DNA from: a virus
DNA: 29,126 nucleotides
Virus record (IMG/VR): IMGVR_UViG_3300046694_000174
Span: 1 to 29,126 of that record
Strand: one strand, 5' to 3'
A model generated the notes under the pieces. The model had not been told where the DNA came from. It did no database searches and saw only the letters and a list, made by a program, of their open reading frames with translations. Below are positions 1 to 19,248 of the stretch, in pieces (within the stretch, counting starts at the first letter, position 1; each line of letters starts with the position of its first letter). The position numbers and the translations under genes are program-made.

Positions 1-543
1 GTAACGCATACGTCCAATGGCCAATACTTCAAGTCCGAATAAAGCCCCGGCAAGAGGGGTGCCGAAGACGGACGCAAAGCCAGCGCTGATGCCGGCCATA
101 AGAATCACCCGGCGATCCTCGCGACGCAGCCGGAAGACATGCGTCAGTTGATCGGCAAGGGCCCCGCCCATTTGCACCGCCGTACCCTCACGCCCAACAG
201 ATGCGCCAAAGAGGTGGGAAACCACCGTTCCGATAAGCACCATCGGAACCATGCGCAAGGGGACAACCTTTTTAGGATCGTGGATCTCATCGATGATCAG
301 ATTGTTTCCGGCATCAACGGGCTTGCCTATCAAGTGATACGCAAGTCCCACGGCAAAGCCAGCTACGGGCAGGAGCCAGATGACCCAGGGATGGGTCTCT
401 CGCCACTGGGTGGCATGATCCAGGGAAAGCAGGAATAACGCAGAAGCAGAACCCGCCAAAAGCGCTACAAGACCTGCAAGCGCAAGCCATTTCGCTAGGT
501 AGGGCAGTAAGTCGAGTTGTTCAGGTCGTCGAAATTTAGACAT
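1..543 (-). CDS. eriC(F): ClC-family fluoride/chloride transporter, 5' part (cut by window edge)
   Basis: Reading leftward from the ATG at 543, the frame stays open to base 1 and gives 181 residues of a ClC-type membrane transporter; the rest lies outside the window. Visible signs are two N-terminal hydrophobic stretches (about 15-40 and 53-72), a GNNL motif at 79-82, the ClC signature GREGTAVQ at 117-124 with the gating glutamate at 119, and further hydrophobic helices from 145. The GNN(L) motif in place of the GSGIP motif of chloride ClCs, together with the fluoride riboswitch upstream, points to the fluoride/proton antiporter branch (CLC-F), which exports fluoride from the cytoplasm. This is host flank rather than phage. 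The family is certain from the motif; the fluoride assignment rests on the motif and the riboswitch. Confidence 0.88.
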   Translation of the reverse strand, partial: MSKFRRPEQLDLLPYLAKWLALAGLVALLAGSASALFLLSLDHATQWRETHPWVIWLLPVAGFAVGLAYHLIGKPVDAGNNLIIDEIHDPKKVVPLRMVPMVLIGTVVSHLFGASVGREGTAVQMGGALADQLTHVFRLRREDRRVILMAGISAGFASVFGTPLAGALFGLEVLAIGRMRY

Positions 544-600
544 TTGGCCAGCCACAAAAAAGTAAGTGGGCCTGACCAAAAACGGATGCTGGGCGCGAAC

Positions 601-637
601 GCCTACAGACCTGGTTTGATCAGGTTTCTGTAGGCAT
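601..637 (-). terminator. Expression-platform hairpin of the fluoride riboswitch
   Basis: A strong inverted repeat on the minus strand (arms GCCTACAG and CTGTAGGC, extended by ACCTG and CAGGT) begins within the last bases of the aptamer, so the two structures probably exclude each other. A TTTTT run follows only about 18 bases later rather than directly. It could therefore end transcription, or act through translation of the gene starting at 543. Confidence 0.6.
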
Positions 638-700
638 CATCAGCTGCTACGGGCGCAGCGGTTGGTTAATGGAGGAATGCCATCTCCAATGGGCCGATCT
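628..700 (-). promoter_or_regulatory. Fluoride riboswitch (crcB motif) aptamer
   Basis: On the minus strand, from about 690 down to 630, lie GGAGATGGCATTCCTCC, an ACC-containing joining segment, a GCTGCGCCCGTAGC hairpin and then TGATG-CCTAC. This order matches the crcB-motif aptamer, in which a pseudoknot holds Mg2+ and fluoride, and it closely resembles the P. syringae eriC leader from memory. It sits about 85 bases upstream of the ClC gene start, in the same orientation. A covariance-model search was not run. Confidence 0.88.
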
Positions 701-2711: not shown

Positions 2712-3095
2712 ATGAACGACATCGACGAAGACACCTCTGAGTGGCTTGGCTGCCCTACGCCCCTGGAAATGTACCAACACCAGTGTGCCCTGCTCGAGGA
2801 CGAGCTCATCCAGACTGAGGCGATGCTGCGAAAGGCACGGGCCAATGTGGCCGGCTTGGTGCAGATGAATGACCTGCTCGCCACCGGAAAAACCGCAGCA
2901 GAGACCCGGTTGAGGGAAGCCCTTGAGCGCGCATCAGCAATCAACGATCGGGAGCCTAACAATGTGAGCTTTCGCCCCATCGATCTGGTTACCGGTCAGC
3001 GCGATGAACTGCTCAGGGAAAACCAGCGATTGCTGGGCGAGCTGCGCGACCTCAAGGAGGCTTCAGCAGCAGCGCCTACTCGGCAAGCGCTTTGA
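2712..3095 (+). CDS. SOS-regulated coiled-coil protein of unknown function
   Basis: A 127-residue protein on the plus strand. The N-terminus is acidic (MNDIDEDTSEW). Two heptad-rich helical stretches follow (about 25-75 and 92-115, with runs such as RDELLRENQRLLGELRDL), so it is probably a coiled-coil dimer in the cytoplasm. There is no membrane segment. No good Shine-Dalgarno is visible before the ATG, and the LexA box lies only 15 bases upstream, so the leader is very short. Its 3' end overlaps the convergent gene at 3076-3303 by 20 bases. I do not recognise a family. SOS control is inferred from the box alone. Confidence 0.75.
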   Translation: MNDIDEDTSEWLGCPTPLEMYQHQCALLEDELIQTEAMLRKARANVAGLVQMNDLLATGKTAAETRLREALERASAINDREPNNVSFRPIDLVTGQRDELLRENQRLLGELRDLKEASAAAPTRQAL

Positions 3096-12616: not shown

Positions 12617-15600
12617 TTACCTCCCGTTGATCAGGCGCCAGATTGAGCCGCCAGGCTGCAGGCCCTTGGCAATGGCGGTTTCAGCCTCTGTTTTGGCAGC
12701 CTGCTGAATGCCTTTGCCCAGTTGCGTGGTGTCTTCCTGTGTCGCGGTGCCGCCATCGCCAGACGTTTGCACGGAGACCGAGACGGGGAAGTTGTAGGTG
12801 TTGCCACCTGCTCCCCCGCCACCACCACCGCCCAGCGCACGCACCCCAAGCTCTCCGCCGGCGGTCCTGGTCAGCGGCATGATTGCCTCCGGCCCGGCCT
12901 CGGCGAAGATGCCCGCACCCTTGGCGAACGCAAACATCTGAGGCTTGTCGTGCACCTGATTGCTGAAGCTGGACAGGCTTGGCGAGTCGTAAACGCCGCC
13001 CTTGGCATTGGCCGTGATCGCGCCGCCAATATCAGAGCCGAAGCTGGTCGCCCCGGACGACCCGCCACCGCCAAACCAGGCACCAATTGCAGTGCCCGCC
13101 AGGCCCGACAGCAAGCCGGAAGCAGCCTGCCGTGTGGCGATCCGCGCCATGTCGGCGATGATCGACTTGGCAAAGTCCGAGAACGACAACTTCCCAGTGA
13201 TGGCGAAGTTTGCGACAGCATCCTCCATGGAGCTAAACGCATTGGTGAAGAGGCTCCTGGTCTGCCCCGCTACATCATTGGCAAACTGCAGGTAGTTCTG
13301 GAAAGCTGACGATGCTCCGCTACGCCAGTCGCCCTGGGCCTCCGACATCTTGTCGTAGTTGTCGACCACCGTGTCGCGGTACTTCCTTTCCGCATCTTCA
13401 ACGCTGGCCAGGTCGCGCATGTAGTCTTCCTGGCTGTACTTGTCAGGCGCGGTCTTGCGGCGATCAAGCAGCTTGGCGCGCTCGTCGTTGAACTTGTCCG
13501 TGGTTGCGTCGAGACTCGCTTGTAGTGCTGCTTCCCGGTCTCCCAGGCCCAGCCCGTTCGCTGCGCGGGAGCCAGCAGCTTCCAGTGCGGCACGCTGACG
13601 TTCTAGCTGGTTGACGTACGCCTCCGAGGCGGCCGTCAGCTGCTCCAGCCGCCCCTTCTCGCTTGTGGCGATGATCGTCAGCTGACTGTCGGCATCCTTC
13701 TGAGCCTTGACCATCCCCTGCCTTGCATCGGCGATCTTCTGGTCAAGTTGGATGCTCTGAGCCGCCGTCGTGCCCTTCTTGGACTTGGCCGCCTCAAGCG
13801 CATCGATTTCAGCCTGGTACGCGGCCGTCACATCATCCTTTTCCTGATTGATCAGGGCCGACCGTTGCTTGGCATAGTCCGACAGCGAAACCACGCCAGC
13901 CTTCTGCTGCGCCTCCAGTTCCATCTGGGCGTTTCGGTAATCATTGACGATGCCGGATAGATTGTTTTTGGCGTTGTTGAAGCTTGTCAGGTCGACTTGA
14001 GAGCTGGCGGCCTTGGGGTCTTTGTTTTTGTCGTTGAGCCCTTTCAGCAAGGTATCGTAAGCCCCCCCTGAGAACTTTTTACCGTCAAAATCGACGCCTT
14101 CCAGAAGCTTAGACTTCTGGCCGGTCCTCTCAGCATTCTCGTACAGTGTTCTGAATTTATCGTTGAGCTTGTCCAGCCCTGCTGAGCGCTTGTTTAGAGG
14201 GTTAATCCCATCGAGCTGCGCATCCAGTTCTTTTTGGACCTTAATAGCTTTCTGGTTTGCGTCGGTGTTCTCGCCAGTGATGATTGCCAGATTGGCGCTG
14301 GCTGCCTGCCGGGCCTTGAGGCTTGCGAGCTTCTTCTCCAGCGCTTCAGTGGAATCGGTGTCCTCTAGTCCTAGAATCGAGTCAAATGCTGTGCTTGCCT
14401 TGCCCAGGCCCGCAGATATAGCCCCCGAAAACCCGCCCGCCTTGCGAGTATCCAGCACGCGCTGGGTTAGCTCTATCTGCTTTGCGAGGTCTGGAAACGC
14501 TTCCGACCGGATGTAGGAATATGCTCGTTTTGTCGCGTTTCCAATGTCATCCCAATCTCGCTCAATATCGGATAGAGACCCGCGATACGCCTTTAGACGC
14601 TCTAGCGCCGCCTCGTTCAAGTTCCCGCTCAGTACATCAAGTGCGCGCTGATGATCGCCTTGGTCATCAATCCCCTTGATCACCTGGTACTGATCTAGGG
14701 TGAGCAACCCATACTGGCTACTGATCTTGCCCGCAGCCTCCGTAGCTGTATCGCCTGCAGTGGCGAATGACTTTGCGAGTTCGCCAGCTCCCTGTCCCGT
14801 GATCTCGCTGATCGCTGCCGCAGCCTCAGCCAGGTTGCGCATCTGCGTGCCACTTGTGGCGGCCCCCGACGCAAGCGAAACAACCGCTTCACGCGCTCCG
14901 GATAGATTTCCAGTGATTCGCCCGGCGCCGTCCGCCATATCCTTCAGGCTGGCAATTGTCTGGCCGGCACCGTTGGTTCCGCCATTGATAGCGGCATTGA
15001 ACTCGCGAGCCTGCTTCATTGCATCAAAATAGGCGTAGCCAAGCGACCCAAGAACGGCCACCAGCAGGCCGGCGGGAATTAACATCCCCGCAAGACTTCG
15101 CGCTGATTCGCCGGCACCAGCACCCAGTTGTGCAATGGCGCGCGCACCGCTCCCCAGATCGCCCGACTGCAGGGCGTTGGCAAGCTGCATTACGTTCTCT
15201 TGGGCCTGGCGAGTGCCAAGCTTCAATTTGTCGAACGCAGTCTCCGTCGCGGTCAGCCCGGCACGGTCCTTACCGATCTTGGCCAGGGCCTCCTGGTATC
15301 GATCAGCATCTATCTGACCTGTTTTGTGCAGGTCGTTTAGCGCTTTCTCTTGGGCCTCCAACTTCGCCAGCTTGGCGGTCACCGGATCAATCCCATTGAC
15401 GGTTCGTTTCAGCGCCTCAATCTGGCGGTTTTCAGCATCAATCAGCTTCTGTTTCTGCGCCAACTCCTTGGCTTCGGCCTTCTCGATTTTGTCGTATGCC
15501 TTGCCCAGCTGATCTTGATACTTTGCTTGATCTTCGATAGTGGCCAAGCCGCCTTTGCGAGCGCGCTCCAACAAACCCTCTGCCCGCACTAAGGATTCAA

Positions 15601-15922
15601 TGCTGTCGATATTGCCCGTCATCGCCTTGTCGAGTTGGCTGATAACGGTGATCTCTGCTGCTGCGCTTTCAGTCGCTTTTCGGCTTGCACCGGACCTGCG
15701 ATCTATCGCGGCTGTGGACTTCTCGACGCCCTGGGCTACCTCATTTTCTGCCTGAGTGATCTTCTTGCCTGTGCTGGCTAAGCCTTCACCAGTCTTGCCT
15801 AGGTCGTCGATCGCCTTCTGTGCACCTTCTGCTGAGTCGACCAATTTATCCAGGTCGTCAGCGGCCTTTGCTGCTTGCGAGGACTCAACGGCAATGCCCA
15901 GGGAGGCGAAACTGGTGCTCAT
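12617..15922 (-). CDS. H: Tape measure protein
   Basis: An 1101-residue protein with GGAGAAAAATA before its ATG. Long A, K, Q and E-rich helices fill residues 1-260. Hydrophobic segments near 268-300 (LAGMLIPAGLLVAVLGSLGY) may cross the host membrane during DNA entry. The C-terminal 200 residues match the lambda gpH end (SSMEDAVANFAITGKLSFSDF, DMARIATRQAASGLL, a glycine-rich linker, then FAKGAGIFAEAGPEAIMPL). Its length sets tail length. In lambda it follows the G-T chaperone directly; here a 2.9 kb accessory island is inserted before it. Confidence 0.95.
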   Translation of the reverse strand: MSTSFASLGIAVESSQAAKAADDLDKLVDSAEGAQKAIDDLGKTGEGLASTGKKITQAENEVAQGVEKSTAAIDRRSGASRKATESAAAEITVISQLDKAMTGNIDSIESLVRAEGLLERARKGGLATIEDQAKYQDQLGKAYDKIEKAEAKELAQKQKLIDAENRQIEALKRTVNGIDPVTAKLAKLEAQEKALNDLHKTGQIDADRYQEALAKIGKDRAGLTATETAFDKLKLGTRQAQENVMQLANALQSGDLGSGARAIAQLGAGAGESARSLAGMLIPAGLLVAVLGSLGYAYFDAMKQAREFNAAINGGTNGAGQTIASLKDMADGAGRITGNLSGAREAVVSLASGAATSGTQMRNLAEAAAAISEITGQGAGELAKSFATAGDTATEAAGKISSQYGLLTLDQYQVIKGIDDQGDHQRALDVLSGNLNEAALERLKAYRGSLSDIERDWDDIGNATKRAYSYIRSEAFPDLAKQIELTQRVLDTRKAGGFSGAISAGLGKASTAFDSILGLEDTDSTEALEKKLASLKARQAASANLAIITGENTDANQKAIKVQKELDAQLDGINPLNKRSAGLDKLNDKFRTLYENAERTGQKSKLLEGVDFDGKKFSGGAYDTLLKGLNDKNKDPKAASSQVDLTSFNNAKNNLSGIVNDYRNAQMELEAQQKAGVVSLSDYAKQRSALINQEKDDVTAAYQAEIDALEAAKSKKGTTAAQSIQLDQKIADARQGMVKAQKDADSQLTIIATSEKGRLEQLTAASEAYVNQLERQRAALEAAGSRAANGLGLGDREAALQASLDATTDKFNDERAKLLDRRKTAPDKYSQEDYMRDLASVEDAERKYRDTVVDNYDKMSEAQGDWRSGASSAFQNYLQFANDVAGQTRSLFTNAFSSMEDAVANFAITGKLSFSDFAKSIIADMARIATRQAASGLLSGLAGTAIGAWFGGGGSSGATSFGSDIGGAITANAKGGVYDSPSLSSFSNQVHDKPQMFAFAKGAGIFAEAGPEAIMPLTRTAGGELGVRALGGGGGGGAGGNTYNFPVSVSVQTSGDGGTATQEDTTQLGKGIQQAAKTEAETAIAKGLQPGGSIWRLINGR

Positions 15923-15939: not shown

Positions 15940-15962
15940 AAAAAAACCCGCCGTAGCGGGTA
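15940..15962 (-). terminator. Intrinsic terminator between the Imm-like gene and the tape measure
   Basis: On the minus strand the perfect stem ACCCGC-TACG-GCGGGT is followed by a run of seven T. It lies downstream of the Imm-like gene and just upstream of the tape-measure ribosome binding site. Confidence 0.85.
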
Positions 15963-15978
15963 GTGGTTGTATTGATGT

Positions 15979-16317
15979 TCAGCTTCGAAGCAGTCTTGCT
16001 TTTTCGGCTTGGAACTCATCTTCCGAAATAAATCCGCGCTCCTTCATGGACACAAGCTTTTCAAGGGCTTCGTATCTGTCGATCTCTGGAGCGGTGGCGC
16101 TGTTCTTCGCTTCCACAGGCTTGCTTATGGCGGATGCTGACCAGACCAGCGCCACCACCCACCCTATGAGAGTCCATCCCAAAAATAAGTTAAGAAGAAA
16201 TATGGAGTCCGTATTTGGGTGCTTTCTGCTTTTGCCGTTAATAGTTGGCAAGAAATAAAGAACCGCACCAATAAAAAACAGCATTAGAGAGCCAATCACT
16301 CCCGATTCACTAGACAT
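15979..16317 (-). CDS. Superinfection-immunity-like membrane protein with SHOCT tail
   Basis: A 112-residue protein with the strong binding site AAGGAGAAGGG before its ATG. It has two membrane helices (about 7-24 and 39-61). The second carries NLFLGWTLIGWVVALVW, the mark of the Imm_superinfect family, to which T4 Imm belongs. A SHOCT module follows at 83-110 (ALEKLVSMKERGFISEDEF). Such proteins sit in the inner membrane, and T4 Imm blocks DNA entry by later phages. It points the same way as the late genes but has its own terminator and faces a promoter region (16318-16502), so it is probably a separately expressed accessory gene. A block on entry is inferred from the family. Confidence 0.8.
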   Translation of the reverse strand: MSSESGVIGSLMLFFIGAVLYFLPTINGKSRKHPNTDSIFLLNLFLGWTLIGWVVALVWSASAISKPVEAKNSATAPEIDRYEALEKLVSMKERGFISEDEFQAEKARLLRS

Positions 16318-16428
16318 AGACCCTTCTCCTTGATCAAGAAAAGCAATCTACCATTTTCAGCAGGAAGCGCCAAAGCCCCTCCCGCCTAGGCCAAAACCCT
16401 GACTCGCAGATGTTTCAACGCTTTAGAA

Positions 16429-16444
16429 CTGTCTAAATGAACAG
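16429..16444. promoter_or_regulatory. LexA (SOS) box in the intergenic region of the accessory island
   Basis: CTGTCTAAATGAACAG fits CTGT-N8-ACAG, with flanking A and T extending the symmetry by one base. It lies between the divergent genes at 16317 (minus) and 16503 (plus), 58 bases before the latter's ATG. TAAATG inside the box could be the -10 of a plus-strand promoter, with GTTTCA 16 bases upstream as a weak -35. Confidence 0.62.
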
Positions 16445-16502
16445 TGCCGCCGGACTCCGACCACATGTAGCATTAGGCCATCAATATTCCATGGAGGTCA
16501 AA

Positions 16503-16760
16503 ATGAGCAATTTCAGCGGCGCGTATTACGTAGTGAACGGCGTGGCATTTGCGGTTTTGCTGGTGACGAACTCATCGGTCAGCAGCCAGAAGGCTATAGA
16601 CGAGACGACTGCTTACTTTCGTCAGTTCATCCCTGGTGTTCCTATTGTTCTGTCAATTCAGCTTCAAGACGGAAGGCTAAAGTTTTGGGGCGACCAAAGC
16701 ATAACCAAATACCTAGCTAACTCTGGCGAAGTTCGCTGGTGCAATTGGTCGTTTAAATGA
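16503..16760 (+). CDS. Accessory small protein of unknown function, probably SOS-regulated
   Basis: An 85-residue plus-strand protein. I start it at the ATG at 16503, which has GGAGGTCAAA just before it; the longer frame would begin inside the LexA box. It has a hydrophobic stretch (YYVVNGVAFAVLLVTN, about 9-24) that may be a beta strand pair or a short membrane segment, then a mixed domain ending VRWCNWSFK. It forms a stand-alone unit: LexA box, binding site, gene, perfect terminator. It runs against the late operon, a typical accessory (moron) layout. No family recognised. Confidence 0.72.
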   Translation: MSNFSGAYYVVNGVAFAVLLVTNSSVSSQKAIDETTAYFRQFIPGVPIVLSIQLQDGRLKFWGDQSITKYLANSGEVRWCNWSFK

Positions 16761-16773
16761 TCCGCTGAGCCCG

Positions 16774-16799
16774 AAAGCCCGGTGCGACCGGGCTTTTTT
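16774..16799 (+). terminator. Intrinsic terminator of the 16503 gene
   Basis: The perfect 9-bp stem AAAGCCCGG / CCGGGCTTT with loop TGCGA is followed by T's on the plus strand, 13 bases after the stop codon. Confidence 0.88.
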
Positions 16800-16861
16800 C
16801 CGCCTGTACGAATCTCCAGTAACGCCCGACCATCGGCAAGTAGTAGCCTCCTGCCACACGC

Positions 16862-16907
16862 AAGGATTTCCCAGTCCTAAGCCAAGCCCAAGGACTGGGA
16901 TAGCGCC
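16862..16907. repeat. Hairpin element, copy 1
   Basis: AAGGATTTCCCAGTCCT, a 12-base loop and AGGACTGGGATAGCGCC. The 10-bp arms pair perfectly (16869-16878 with 16891-16900). The same element, with a different loop, is at 18316-18364. No T run follows, so it is not a plain terminator. It lies about 110 bases before the HEPN-like gene. Confidence 0.8.
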
Positions 16908-17015
16908 CAATGGTTGGAGTGTAATTAAGCCTTCCAAAAATCTAAACATAAAAATACCAAACTCGCATACCAGTATTTCACAAGATATCCCCATCTTAAA
17001 AGCCACGAGAAAATC

Positions 17016-17525
17016 ATGCAAAACACACTTGAATCCACTCCATATATATCTCGCTCACAGTCAAGATTAATCCATTGCTACGGATTATTCATGGTAGCTT
17101 GGTCAGCCCTTGAGGCGGTAATTCAAACTGCGATCATGAAAGAGCTGGGCATTACACCTGCTAAAGCCGTAATCATTACGGGAAAACTACAATTCCAACC
17201 TCGTGTTCAACTTTTGATAAACCTTTTAAAACTTAATGAAACCTCAGATAGAGAAACAATAAAACTATTGCAAAAGACCGAAGGCTTTTCTCATCGAAAC
17301 ACTATTGTGCACGGAATCATCATAATCGGTAATCCAGAGAAGCTAACCTTCGTTAAGTACGATGGTGGAGCAAGCGTAAAGCAAGCATTTACGGTCGACT
17401 CTATGGAAAAACACATTTCCGGACTGGCTGAACGAACAGTGAAACTACAAGCACTACTTAATGTAACGGACGAAGAAATGCAGAGAATCTGCGATGCAAC
17501 GTTAGAATTTTCAAACAAACCATAA
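17016..17525 (+). CDS. HEPN-like protein, possible defence RNase
   Basis: A 169-residue plus-strand protein, markedly AT-richer than the phage genes around it, which suggests recent transfer. It is predicted nearly all helical. An early helix LFMVAWSALEAVIQTAI (about 24-40) is followed later by SHRNTIVHG at 92-100, giving R94-N-x-x-x-H99, the R-X4-H motif of HEPN ribonucleases. HEPN proteins often act in phage defence and abortive infection by cutting RNA. No paired nucleotidyltransferase or antitoxin is obvious next door; the nearest small gene is at 17598. No strong ribosome binding site is visible. The HEPN call rests on motif and helix pattern only; a catalytically idle HEPN or an unrelated helical protein remains possible. 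Confidence 0.6.
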   Translation: MQNTLESTPYISRSQSRLIHCYGLFMVAWSALEAVIQTAIMKELGITPAKAVIITGKLQFQPRVQLLINLLKLNETSDRETIKLLQKTEGFSHRNTIVHGIIIIGNPEKLTFVKYDGGASVKQAFTVDSMEKHISGLAERTVKLQALLNVTDEEMQRICDATLEFSNKP

Positions 17526-17556
17526 CTTTGGAAAGAATCTGCTTTGAGCCAAGACG

Positions 17557-17583
17557 CAAAAAGCCCAGCGCGGGGCTGGGCCT
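17557..17583 (-). terminator. Intrinsic terminator downstream of the 17598 gene
   Basis: On the minus strand the stem GCCCAGC-CCCGC-GCTGGGC is followed by five T. It lies between the convergent genes at 17016-17525 (plus) and 17598-17777 (minus), and would also face late transcription. Confidence 0.8.
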
Positions 17584-17597
17584 TAAGTCATATATCT

Positions 17598-17777
17598 TTA
17601 CCGCTTCCGGCGCTCTTCGATCAGCGCATCTGCAATTTCCGCAGCTCTTTGTGTAGCTTTCAATAAGTAGTCACGCGCGTCATGACCCTTCACAGAGTTG
17701 TAAGCCGTGGCAATGGCTGCGGCAGCATATTGGTCCCAAGCCTGCACCTCGGCCTCGTTTTTTACCTTAATAACCAT
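17598..17777 (-). CDS. Small helical protein of unknown function
   Basis: A 59-residue leftward protein. I choose the ATG at 17777 because AAGGAAG lies five bases upstream; a start 12 codons earlier lacks such a site. Composition is A, E, K and R-rich with a long helix (QYAAAAIATAYNSVKGHDARDYLLKATQRAAEIADAL). There is no membrane segment. It converges on the HEPN-like gene and has its own terminator. It could be a partner or antidote of that protein, but this is only a guess from position. Confidence 0.6.
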   Translation of the reverse strand: MVIKVKNEAEVQAWDQYAAAAIATAYNSVKGHDARDYLLKATQRAAEIADALIEERRKR

Positions 17778-17963
17778 TACTTCTTCCTTGTTTGGCATTG
17801 AGCAATGGCTCAATCGCCGAGACGAATCTAGCGCCTCATGTGCTGCCTATCAACTTCGACTAAAGTCGACCCTGTCCACCTATCCAGCGTGGATGGAAAG
17901 CCAGTGGCAACCGGGGCGTCATCAGTAGTAGCTTTTGGCCCACAACCCAGAAGGAACTGAGCA

Positions 17964-18167
17964 ATGGCCAAGCAACCCACCAACAGCGGCAAGGAATGGA
18001 CGGCGGCAGAGATCACCCAACTCCGTACCCTTGCTGCTGGTAACACCCCTACGCGCGTGATCGGCCTCAAGCTTGGCCGCTCCGAGGCGTCCATCTACAG
18101 CAAGGCCGCCGAGCTGGGCATCAGCCTGAAGCCGACGAATCAGTCACCTTACAATCGCAAGCCTTGA
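17964..18167 (+). CDS. Small SANT/Myb-like helix-turn-helix DNA-binding protein
   Basis: A 67-residue plus-strand protein with AAGGA eight bases before its ATG. The core EWTAAEITQLRTLAAGNTPTRVIGLKLGRSEASIYSKAAELGISL forms three helices, with the third the likely DNA-recognition helix; the end is KPTNQSPYNR. This small family is common in proteobacterial genomes. It is probably a regulator in the cytoplasm. Its 3' end overlaps the convergent small gene at 18121-18291 by 47 bases. A short palindrome, TCGACTAAAGTCGA, lies about 95 bases upstream (17856-17869). Confidence 0.78.
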   Translation: MAKQPTNSGKEWTAAEITQLRTLAAGNTPTRVIGLKLGRSEASIYSKAAELGISLKPTNQSPYNRKP

Positions 18168-18291
18168 GGACTGCCGTGGCGCGCTCGTAGGAAGCTCTCA
18201 GCTCATCACTCCAGCTGTGCTCGTGATCAGCCAACGCCAACGCGAGGGCATCCAGCGTGCGCGCAATATCGCTACGTTCGATTTGAGTCAT
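18121..18291 (-). CDS. Small helical protein of unknown function
   Basis: A possible 56-residue leftward gene starting at the ATG at 18291 (MTQIERSDIARTLDALALALADHEH...). The helical, charged composition and tidy heptads look like a real protein, and I recall similar small proteins in Pseudomonas. The frame runs on to 18411, but that longer version crosses the hairpin repeat at 18316-18364. No convincing ribosome binding site. Its 3' end overlaps the HTH gene on the other strand. Moderate to low confidence. Confidence 0.45.
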   Translation of the reverse strand: MTQIERSDIARTLDALALALADHEHSWSDELRASYERATAVLKACDCKVTDSSASG

Positions 18292-18315
18292 TTCGAAATA
18301 CTCGAATGAGTGAAA

Positions 18316-18364
18316 AAGGATTTCCCAGTCCTTCGCCTGCAATCCCAAGGACTGGGATAGCGCC
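18316..18364. repeat. Hairpin element, copy 2
   Basis: AAGGATTTCCCAGTCCTT, a 13-base loop and AAGGACTGGGATAGCGCC. The 11-bp arms pair perfectly (18323-18333 with 18347-18357). The outer parts are identical to the copy at 16862-16907 while the loops differ. It lies 32 bases before the GTG start of the gene at 18397. Confidence 0.8.
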
Positions 18365-18396
18365 AATATCGGCGCGTTTATGACCTGGAGGTCAAT

Positions 18397-18651
18397 GTGA
18401 ACAAAGGACAAACCATCTTCCCCTACATCATCGTCACATCGAAAGAAGACTACATCCCTGTAGCGGAGAAATTCGCCTACAAAGGTGTTGAAGTCGGGTG
18501 CGGTGTCATCACCTTTTTGTCAGAGTCTGATTTTGGGACAATCTACGATGCGCTAAAAAGCGTTGGTTCAGGGTATGCGCTGATCTTGGCTGATGATCTG
18601 AACTACTTCGGCGACGGCAATTTCGATAGGGCCTTCCATCACATCAACTGA
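18397..18651 (+). CDS. Accessory small protein of unknown function
   Basis: An 84-residue plus-strand protein starting with GTG behind the strong site CTGGAGGTCAAT. It is a compact mixed alpha/beta protein (FPYIIVTSKEDYIPVAEKF, then GCGVITFLSESDFGTIYDAL, GYALILADDLNYFGDG) without a membrane segment. The leader GGAGGTCAA is the same as that of the gene at 16503. The hairpin repeat copy 2 lies directly upstream. Its end overlaps the convergent gene at 18644-18850 by eight bases. No family recognised. Confidence 0.68.
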   Translation: MNKGQTIFPYIIVTSKEDYIPVAEKFAYKGVEVGCGVITFLSESDFGTIYDALKSVGSGYALILADDLNYFGDGNFDRAFHHIN

Positions 18652-18850
18652 TCTTCGTTGTGCTTCCGGTAAAGAGAAGCTTGCCACCGACAACTTCGAT
18701 TTTACCGCCCTCGGAAAGATTGTACGGGCCGCTGAGCAAGTACTCGGCGCGCCCGTCCTGAACATCAACTTCGACTGGCTCCCGATTTGGCTTGTTACCC
18801 AGCATCGAGCGCCAAGCGATTACCGGGCCGAACTGATCGATCTTTTGCAT
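18644..18850 (-). CDS. Small beta-rich protein of unknown function, late-operon strand
   Basis: A 68-residue leftward protein. The ATG at 18850 is chosen for AGGAG shortly upstream; the longer frame to 18868 has no such site. It is rich in V, G, E and L with several short strands (PVEVDVQDGRAEYLLSGPYNL, GKIEVVGGKLLFTGST). It follows the G-T chaperone by 59 bases on the same strand, so it may belong to the late operon rather than to the accessory island. It might be a small virion or regulatory protein; nothing in it fixes the role. Confidence 0.62.
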   Translation of the reverse strand: MQKIDQFGPVIAWRSMLGNKPNREPVEVDVQDGRAEYLLSGPYNLSEGGKIEVVGGKLLFTGSTTKIS

Positions 18851-18909
18851 ACCCACTCCTGCGGCCATGCCGCGTCATGTTGGTTGTTTTGCGTCTTTGT
18901 GCCTGAGGA

Positions 18910-19248
18910 TCAGGCGCCTCTCGCACTCTCCCGCTGTTCCGCCATCACCTGCAGGGCTTCAGCCTCCATACGGCGGAAGTCGCTGAAAATGGTTTGTCGC
19001 TGGCTGATCGGTACCCCACACATCCGAATAACCCCGGAGAGAACGCTGTAGTCCATGCCTGTTGCGCCGCACGCACCTGTGCGCCACTGGGTGCTCATGG
19101 CCTCGAAGACTTTGAAGGCGTCCCAGTTGTCGGGCCAGATACCAACTTCCTTGTCGGGAATGTCCTGGCGAGACAAGCCGAAGGCCATCAGGTCTGAATC
19201 TGATGGCCCTGGCTCATACAGCGCGCGGGAGGCGCTTAGGAGTTTCCC
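18910..19248 (-). CDS. T: Tail assembly chaperone T part of the G-T frameshift product (DUF1799-like)
   Basis: This frame has no convincing start of its own. It is open from the slippery site at 19248 to the stop at 18910 and gives about 112 residues joined to G: LLSASRALYEPGPSD, then MAFGLSRQDIPDKEVGIWPDNW, FKVFEAMSTQWRTG...GMDYSVL, the DUF1799 pattern. A -1 shift at GGGAAAC would fuse it to nearly all of G, as in lambda G-T. G and G-T together coat the tape measure while the tail tube polymerises around it. The internal ATG at 19188 lacks a good binding site, so frameshift expression is favoured. Confidence 0.85.
   Translation of the reverse strand, partial: GKLLSASRALYEPGPSDSDLMAFGLSRQDIPDKEVGIWPDNWDAFKVFEAMSTQWRTGACGATGMDYSVLSGVIRMCGVPISQRQTIFSDFRRMEAEALQVMAEQRESARGA
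19220..19248 (-). promoter_or_regulatory. Programmed -1 ribosomal frameshift site (GGGAAAC plus hairpin)
   Basis: On the minus strand, codons ..CTG GGA AAC TCC TAA contain the heptamer G-GGA-AAC in the right frame for a -1 slip (19248-19242), three codons before the G stop codon. A 5-base spacer leads to a short GC hairpin, AGCGC-CTCCCGC-GCGCT (19236-19220), which could pause the ribosome. The -1 frame is then open through the T part. Lambda uses GGGAAAG at the same point. Confidence 0.85.

Follow-up and report, generated by a model that had tools for sequence, protein, structure and literature searches.

The question raised by the 29,126-nucleotide (nt) stretch of viral DNA analysed here (one IMG/VR record, IMGVR_UViG_3300046694_000174, from a lambda-like Pseudomonas siphovirus with its late genes on the minus strand; hereafter the window) is why 2987 bp with genes on both strands separate the late gene T, which encodes a DUF1799 tail assembly partner (18910-19188, minus strand; PF08809, E = 2.6e-25), from the tape-measure gene TMP (12617-15922, minus strand). 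We refer to the DNA between these upstream and downstream borders as the island. An earlier note, made from the sequence alone, had read it as a cargo hot spot that could hold a defence and superinfection-exclusion cassette, and as a candidate for a new system. We demonstrate that the island is a moron hot spot and that it contains convergent gene pairs, here called X and B, which lie between two constant leaders and are replaced as a unit, independently of all their neighbours. As a new system the hot spot does not stand, being of a known kind. What looks undescribed in the literature that we searched, where no paper describing the leader or the pair class was found, is the set of covarying convergent pairs, with their constant SOS-type leaders, which the note had overlooked.

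The pairs share one layout. X is a small late-strand gene that lies between T or K and the stop codon of B, facing B, and the two genes converge with 3' ends that mostly overlap by 4-48 nt. The window holds two such pairs. In pair 1, X1 (18644-18850, minus strand; 68 amino acids, aa) converges with B1 (18397-18651, plus strand, antisense to the late genes; 84 aa, GTG start), and X1 is the partner of B1-family genes at both the T-TMP and the K-I site. In pair 2, X2 (18121-18291, minus strand; 56 aa) converges with B16 (17964-18167, plus strand; 67 aa) over a 3' overlap of 47 nt. B16 carries a D5-like helix-turn-helix (HTH) and matches phrog_323 (E = 1e-11), which bears out the note's call of an HTH gene at this position, and its homologues are 62-86% identical in six phage records. 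Pair 2 recurs as two hypothetical proteins between the chaperones and the tape measure in Cruim01 and between K and I in AUS531phi and YMC11/02/R656, and another leader-bearing pair is found in R656, at I-J, and in phita81A, adjacent to L.

The evidence for exchange as a unit is the covariation of the two proteins. Across 61 deduplicated loci, B similarity predicts X similarity with a Mantel r of 0.605 (maximum of 5000 permutations, 0.113); stricter deduplication leaves 0.53 against 0.115, and comparisons made across sites, of T-TMP with K-I loci, give 0.515 against a permutation value of 0.193. The controls are flat, B being uncorrelated with T (-0.05), K (0.06), I (-0.005), TMP (0.03) and the gene A that can precede the B leader (0.05). 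Moreover, dN/dS, the ratio of nonsynonymous to synonymous substitution rates, is 0.10 for B1, 0.20 for X1, 0.15 for the B2 family and 0.39 for the X2 family, showing that both genes are under purifying selection.

Both outer sides of the pair are constant. On the B side, the hairpin that the note had seen in two copies forms the core of an element 87 nt long. Read antisense to the late genes, this element is AAGGATTCCCCAGTCCTTCGCCTGCAAGCCCAAGGACTGGGATNGCGCCAATATCGGCGCGTTTATGACCTGGAGGTCAA, and the start codon comes next. The window has one complete and one truncated copy of this longer leader rather than two equal hairpins. The complete copy spans 18313-18399 of the plus strand including the start codon (leader proper 18313-18396), comprises hairpins at 18324-18356 and 18360-18375 and the ribosome-binding site GACCTGGAGGTCA, and scores 109.7 bits with our model R1, 73 distinct copies having been aligned; the truncated copy (16859-16928, plus strand; R1 41.4 bits, E = 8e-12) has lost the second hairpin and the ribosome-binding site. 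In the relatives, leader copies sit at T-TMP or K-I and without exception run antisense to the late genes, and the B start codon nearly always follows the last hairpin arm by 20-22 nt. What follows the leader is highly variable: grouping by phmmer at E < 1e-3 divides the 78 distinct B proteins into 18 families, and a profile comparison of the six larger families yielded a weak link between B0 and B4 only. On the X side, the X1 leader (18851-18909, minus strand) is likewise constant, with a GCGGC-ATG-GCCGC hairpin and an AGGAG ribosome-binding site; relatives have this leader after T as well as after K, and the hairpin is kept in 52 of 66 leaders. As a separate observation, many X proteins share the C-terminal motif EKADLLERRLSRLExALGL though their B partners are unrelated, which suggests a common X module.

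Of 399 Pseudomonas genomes, 42 carry the B leader, and a reversed control pattern gave 0 matches; outside the Pseudomonadaceae there was one borderline match among 195 genomes of the order, and none was found in plasmids. Its low copy number, 1-3 per genome at most, and its absence from plasmids rule out a host repeat of the REP-like kind. Nor is it a C4/CI-type antisense RNA, as it has no match in Rfam 15 up to E = 10 and its hairpin ends at the ribosome-binding site, and stop codons (GCG TAG) and length changes in the apparent frame rule out that the hairpin is coding sequence. Among the 73 close copies the stems are too conserved to show compensatory changes; once diverged copies were added, four stem pairs had changes in both partners (7 cells, a result seen in 0 of 500 shuffles) and covariation reached 0.122 against at most 0.028 in slid controls, which counts as support rather than proof, since the diverged alignment was fitted to the structure. 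Two further features of the leader may be mentioned here: the copy in locus L263 (~1530-1600) has a tandem GGGACT expansion inside the first hairpin, and in most B leaders with a GTG start, such as that of the window (18395-18400), an ATG-TGA overlaps the GTG (GGTCAATGTGA), a start-stop that could affect B translation.

The B leader is preceded in some cases by another gene (A) and in the others by a constant promoter module. The operator by which a LexA regulon promoter would be recognised, CTG-N10-CAG, is present in 25 of the 27 distinct promoter modules without an upstream gene, where 0.5 would be expected, and it occurs at either of two positions, separated by 17 nt, whose inner bases differ; LexA control of B is likely on this sequence pattern. 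The window's island has three LexA-type boxes, all on the plus strand, that agree with CTGTATAAATATACAG at 11 or more of its 16 positions, where 0.6 would be expected across the entire 29 kb: CTGTCTAAATGAACAG (16429-16444, 13/16, a score that chance would be expected to give nowhere in the window), CTGTACGAATCTCCAG in a promoter module (16804-16819, 12/16) and CTGTCCACCTATCCAG in the promoter module ahead of B16 (17872-17887). Far from the island, the box CTGTACGCACATACAG (2681-2696, 12/16 to the consensus) lies just 5' of a plus-strand open reading frame (ORF) at 2712-3095.

How the cassettes are placed became clear from relatives of the locus, gathered through T and G. In the loci of 58 relatives the site is empty and T and TMP overlap by 4 nt (ATGA), whereas in approximately 17 distinct relatives inserts of 0.5-6.5 kb occupy exactly that point, with several contigs ending inside the longer inserts. 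The insert ends are constant: the left end, 'CCTCAGGCACAAAGACGCAAAACAACCAACATGACGCGGCATGGCCGCAGGAG', follows the T stop codon, and most inserts have a terminator and a new ribosome-binding site before TMP, the window's own copy of this terminator (15946-15961, minus strand) lying directly 5' of the TMP ribosome-binding site. The contents in between differ widely and include Arc, antirepressor, Rha, KilA-N, AbiU2-HEPN, NYN, DUF4747 and HIRAN proteins. The junction comparison rules out a conserved core module, the same genes not being fixed in all relatives, and confirms the hot spot that the note had proposed. In keeping with morons, the genes are inserted between late genes that are otherwise adjacent and have predicted promoter modules of their own, with a LexA box, and predicted terminators. 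The site itself is not new, as HK97 carries the moron gp15 and a terminator exactly there. Among 51 non-redundant loci in which T, TMP, K and I are all visible, an insert is found at T-TMP only in 15 and at K-I only in 36, while none has both and none has neither; the corresponding p value of 3e-13 is nominal, since the loci are related and were found via T, G or the leader element itself. Single genomes with co-resident prophages were few. In five relatives (L003, L004, L005, L010 and L089), Arc-like genes stand together with antirepressor, Rha or KilA-N genes at T-TMP, an arrangement that looks like a P22 immI-type region lying within the tail operon.

What might the pairs do? The reading that we favour, and to which we would give about an even chance, is that of an exchangeable cassette in which B, expressed from the prophage and inducible by SOS, inhibits other phages, and X is its cognate late antidote, protecting the phage's own assembly. 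We infer this from the match in layout with Tab and anti-Tab of P. aeruginosa JBD26, where Tab, a defence protein of 83 aa that blocks tail assembly, is encoded within the late operon on the reverse strand, behind a promoter of its own, and anti-Tab, an antidote that binds Tab directly, is encoded immediately downstream of a late gene and on the late strand (PMC10884400). X and B are likewise convergent, the reverse gene has its own predicted promoter and its partner follows a late gene, and the 3' overlap of Tab and anti-Tab in the JBD26 record is 47 nt, as in the HTH pair of the window; the Tab pair differs in lying between the terminase genes and in being a single pair type, compared with the many exchangeable X/B pairs. 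On this reading, recombination within the constant leaders would swap the X/B pair; B would be made from the prophage, derepressed on SOS induction, and would inhibit other phages, by the Tab precedent perhaps at virion or tail assembly; and X, made with the late genes, would neutralise its cognate B so that the phage could assemble its own particles.

Several observations weigh against this interpretation. Tab and anti-Tab have no detectable homology to any B or X (phmmer best E = 0.045; no match with hhalign), the R1 leader was not found in JBD26, and Tab is reported as constitutive (PMC10884400), whereas B is apparently LexA-controlled. The predicted structure of B1 gives no function: the AlphaFold2 model is a small alpha/beta fold (predicted local distance difference test score, pLDDT, 91; predicted template modelling score, pTM, 0.82), and a fold search with it returned nothing significant, only weak ferredoxin/HMA-like matches. 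The model of X1 is too poor for a fold search, and sequence searches of the PDB with B1 and X1 gave no match. In addition, the pairing is not one-to-one, as one X family occurs with several B families, and in held-out loci X was matched in only three of eight cases against 0.25 expected, a count limited by ORF calling. Finally, nothing constant lies between X and B, so linkage alone could hold them together.

This last point leads to the main rival explanation, which we consider unlikely but the most serious of the alternatives, namely that X and B have no functional pairing: as unrelated morons, they would be carried along together because recombination is confined to the two leaders. The constant leaders on both outer sides, the loose matching of families and the low yield of the held-out loci are what such mechanical linkage would produce. 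It accounts less readily for a convergent layout with overlapping 3' ends that is kept across unrelated families, for the finding that X is still homologous in about half of the comparisons in which B similarity is only 0.2-0.35, for the HTH pair that stays intact in unrelated phages, and for the functional pairing of the analogous Tab and anti-Tab.

Less probable still is that the cassette serves the phage itself, with SOS-induced B delaying or tuning its own late functions, such as the timing of assembly or lysis, and X relieving this effect once late transcription runs. The SOS-type boxes and the placing of X as a late-operon gene directly behind T or K, with the cassette always inside the tail operon, would suit such a device; however, if it timed conserved tail genes, one would not expect 18 B families that are uncorrelated with the sequences of T, K, I and TMP. 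We regard an addiction module, with B toxic to the host and X its antitoxin, as improbable: the genes are small, paired and apparently under SOS-type control, and a HEPN-motif gene lies in the same island, but X, as a late-operon gene, should not be expressed in the lysogen, where an antitoxin would be needed, the layout is convergent rather than operonic, and neither B1 nor B16 has a toxin-family match in Pfam and PHROG searches. Very unlikely, lastly, is that the leader acts as an RNA, or through antisense transcription against X and the late genes, with the proteins being incidental, as the double hairpin with compensatory changes and the overlapping convergent genes might suggest, given that both proteins are under purifying selection and covary as proteins.

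Besides its two X/B pairs, the island of the window, whose G+C content is 41-57% compared with approximately 60% in the late genes, contains a moron with an SOS box, a HEPN-motif gene and an Imm/SHOCT membrane gene. The last of these (15979-16317, minus strand; 112 aa) matches Imm_superinfect (PF14373, E = 5.6e-18; 65 bits against a gathering cut-off of 27.9) and SHOCT (PF09851, E = 5.3e-8), which confirms its earlier naming; by sequence it is a member of the Imm_superinfect family, which corresponds to phrog_1039, but it has a SHOCT tail, and its own family (F0) is present in the islands of many relatives. Superinfection exclusion is a reasonable function for this protein by analogy, as it sits where gp15 of HK97 sits, though the two are not homologous, and within the favoured reading it would add exclusion to the cassette from beside the tape measure. 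The HK97 superinfection-exclusion moron lies between gp13/14 and the tape-measure gene, with a terminator before the latter, and gp15 is a predicted inner membrane protein (PMC10883804); the window protein appears to be a membrane protein too. The two show no sequence similarity, and gp15 is a single gene without a convergent pair or SOS leader. Closer to the pairs in layout, by which alone we compare them, are gp22 and gp23 of HK97, a moron and reverse moron that are also small, convergent and 3'-overlapping in the tail operon, between I and J. Taken together, a defence or exclusion role for the island is partly supported, by homology and analogy: the Imm/SHOCT gene by TMP, the AbiU2-HEPN, NYN and antirepressor genes of relatives, and the Tab-like layout all point towards it.

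The small gene at 16503-16760 (plus strand; 85 aa, phrog_23950) lies behind the first LexA-type box, as the note had observed for its SOS-linked protein, and is related to B-family genes of loci L114 and L182. The 169-aa protein encoded by the AT-rich gene at 17016-17525 (plus strand) has an R-x4-H motif (RNTIVH) and one viral relative, at 56% identity; it has no Pfam match up to E = 1 and no PHROG match, so that the HEPN-like assignment holds as a motif-based one and lacks the support of a profile. Further along lies a 59-aa late-strand gene (17598-17777, minus strand; family F46), also present in the L089 island. Instead of two terminators we find three terminator-like hairpins, namely the one before TMP, an intrinsic terminator after the 59-aa gene (17562-17577, minus strand) and a hairpin after the SOS-box gene (~16773-16797, plus strand; -17.3 kcal/mol). 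The named genes of the note thus stand, while some of the ORFs need correction: the minus-strand ORF 18121-18411 is mis-started and begins with the translated hairpin element, the true gene being X2, the minus-strand ORF 16713-17021 is likewise the translation of a repeat copy, and the ORF 17828-18070 is rated probably spurious. At the left end of the window, positions 1-2264 look like host chromosome, with a fluoride riboswitch (624-696, minus strand) ahead of an open ORF (1-579, minus strand), and two serine-tRNA-like stretches (~1000-1090 and 2157-2264), in which ARAGORN found no complete tRNA, may mark an attachment site.

A close counterpart of the B leader comes from the cluster K mycobacteriophages, in which the SAS/ESAS elements place a conserved ribosome-binding-site sequence immediately before the start codons of unrelated small genes, about half with an upstream inverted repeat (PMC3203893). 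The B leader is likewise a constant ribosome-binding-site element before unrelated genes, but sequence and host differ, which makes this an analogy and not membership; furthermore, the mycobacteriophage elements occur in many copies per genome, and the part of that account available to us describes no convergent partner or LexA box.

The broader possibility, which we put forward tentatively and consider somewhat doubtful, is that these pairs represent a large unrecognised class of polymorphic weapon-and-immunity cassettes, in which SOS-induced B acts against co-induced or incoming phages, late X is the cognate protection, and two start-associated leaders shuffle the pairs. If true, phages would possess in these cassettes a counterpart of the colicin/immunity pairs of bacteria. 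Should B and X indeed act as inhibitor and antidote, Pseudomonas prophages would hold dozens of leader-recognisable pairs that decide the winner in lysogens or in multiply induced cells, and Tab and anti-Tab would no longer stand alone but exemplify a general pattern; the leader could then be used to search for new phage-defence genes, and the covariation would supply cognate and non-cognate pairs. Should the pairing prove only mechanical, the constant leaders still show the way in which phages exchange cargo at fixed points of the tail operon.

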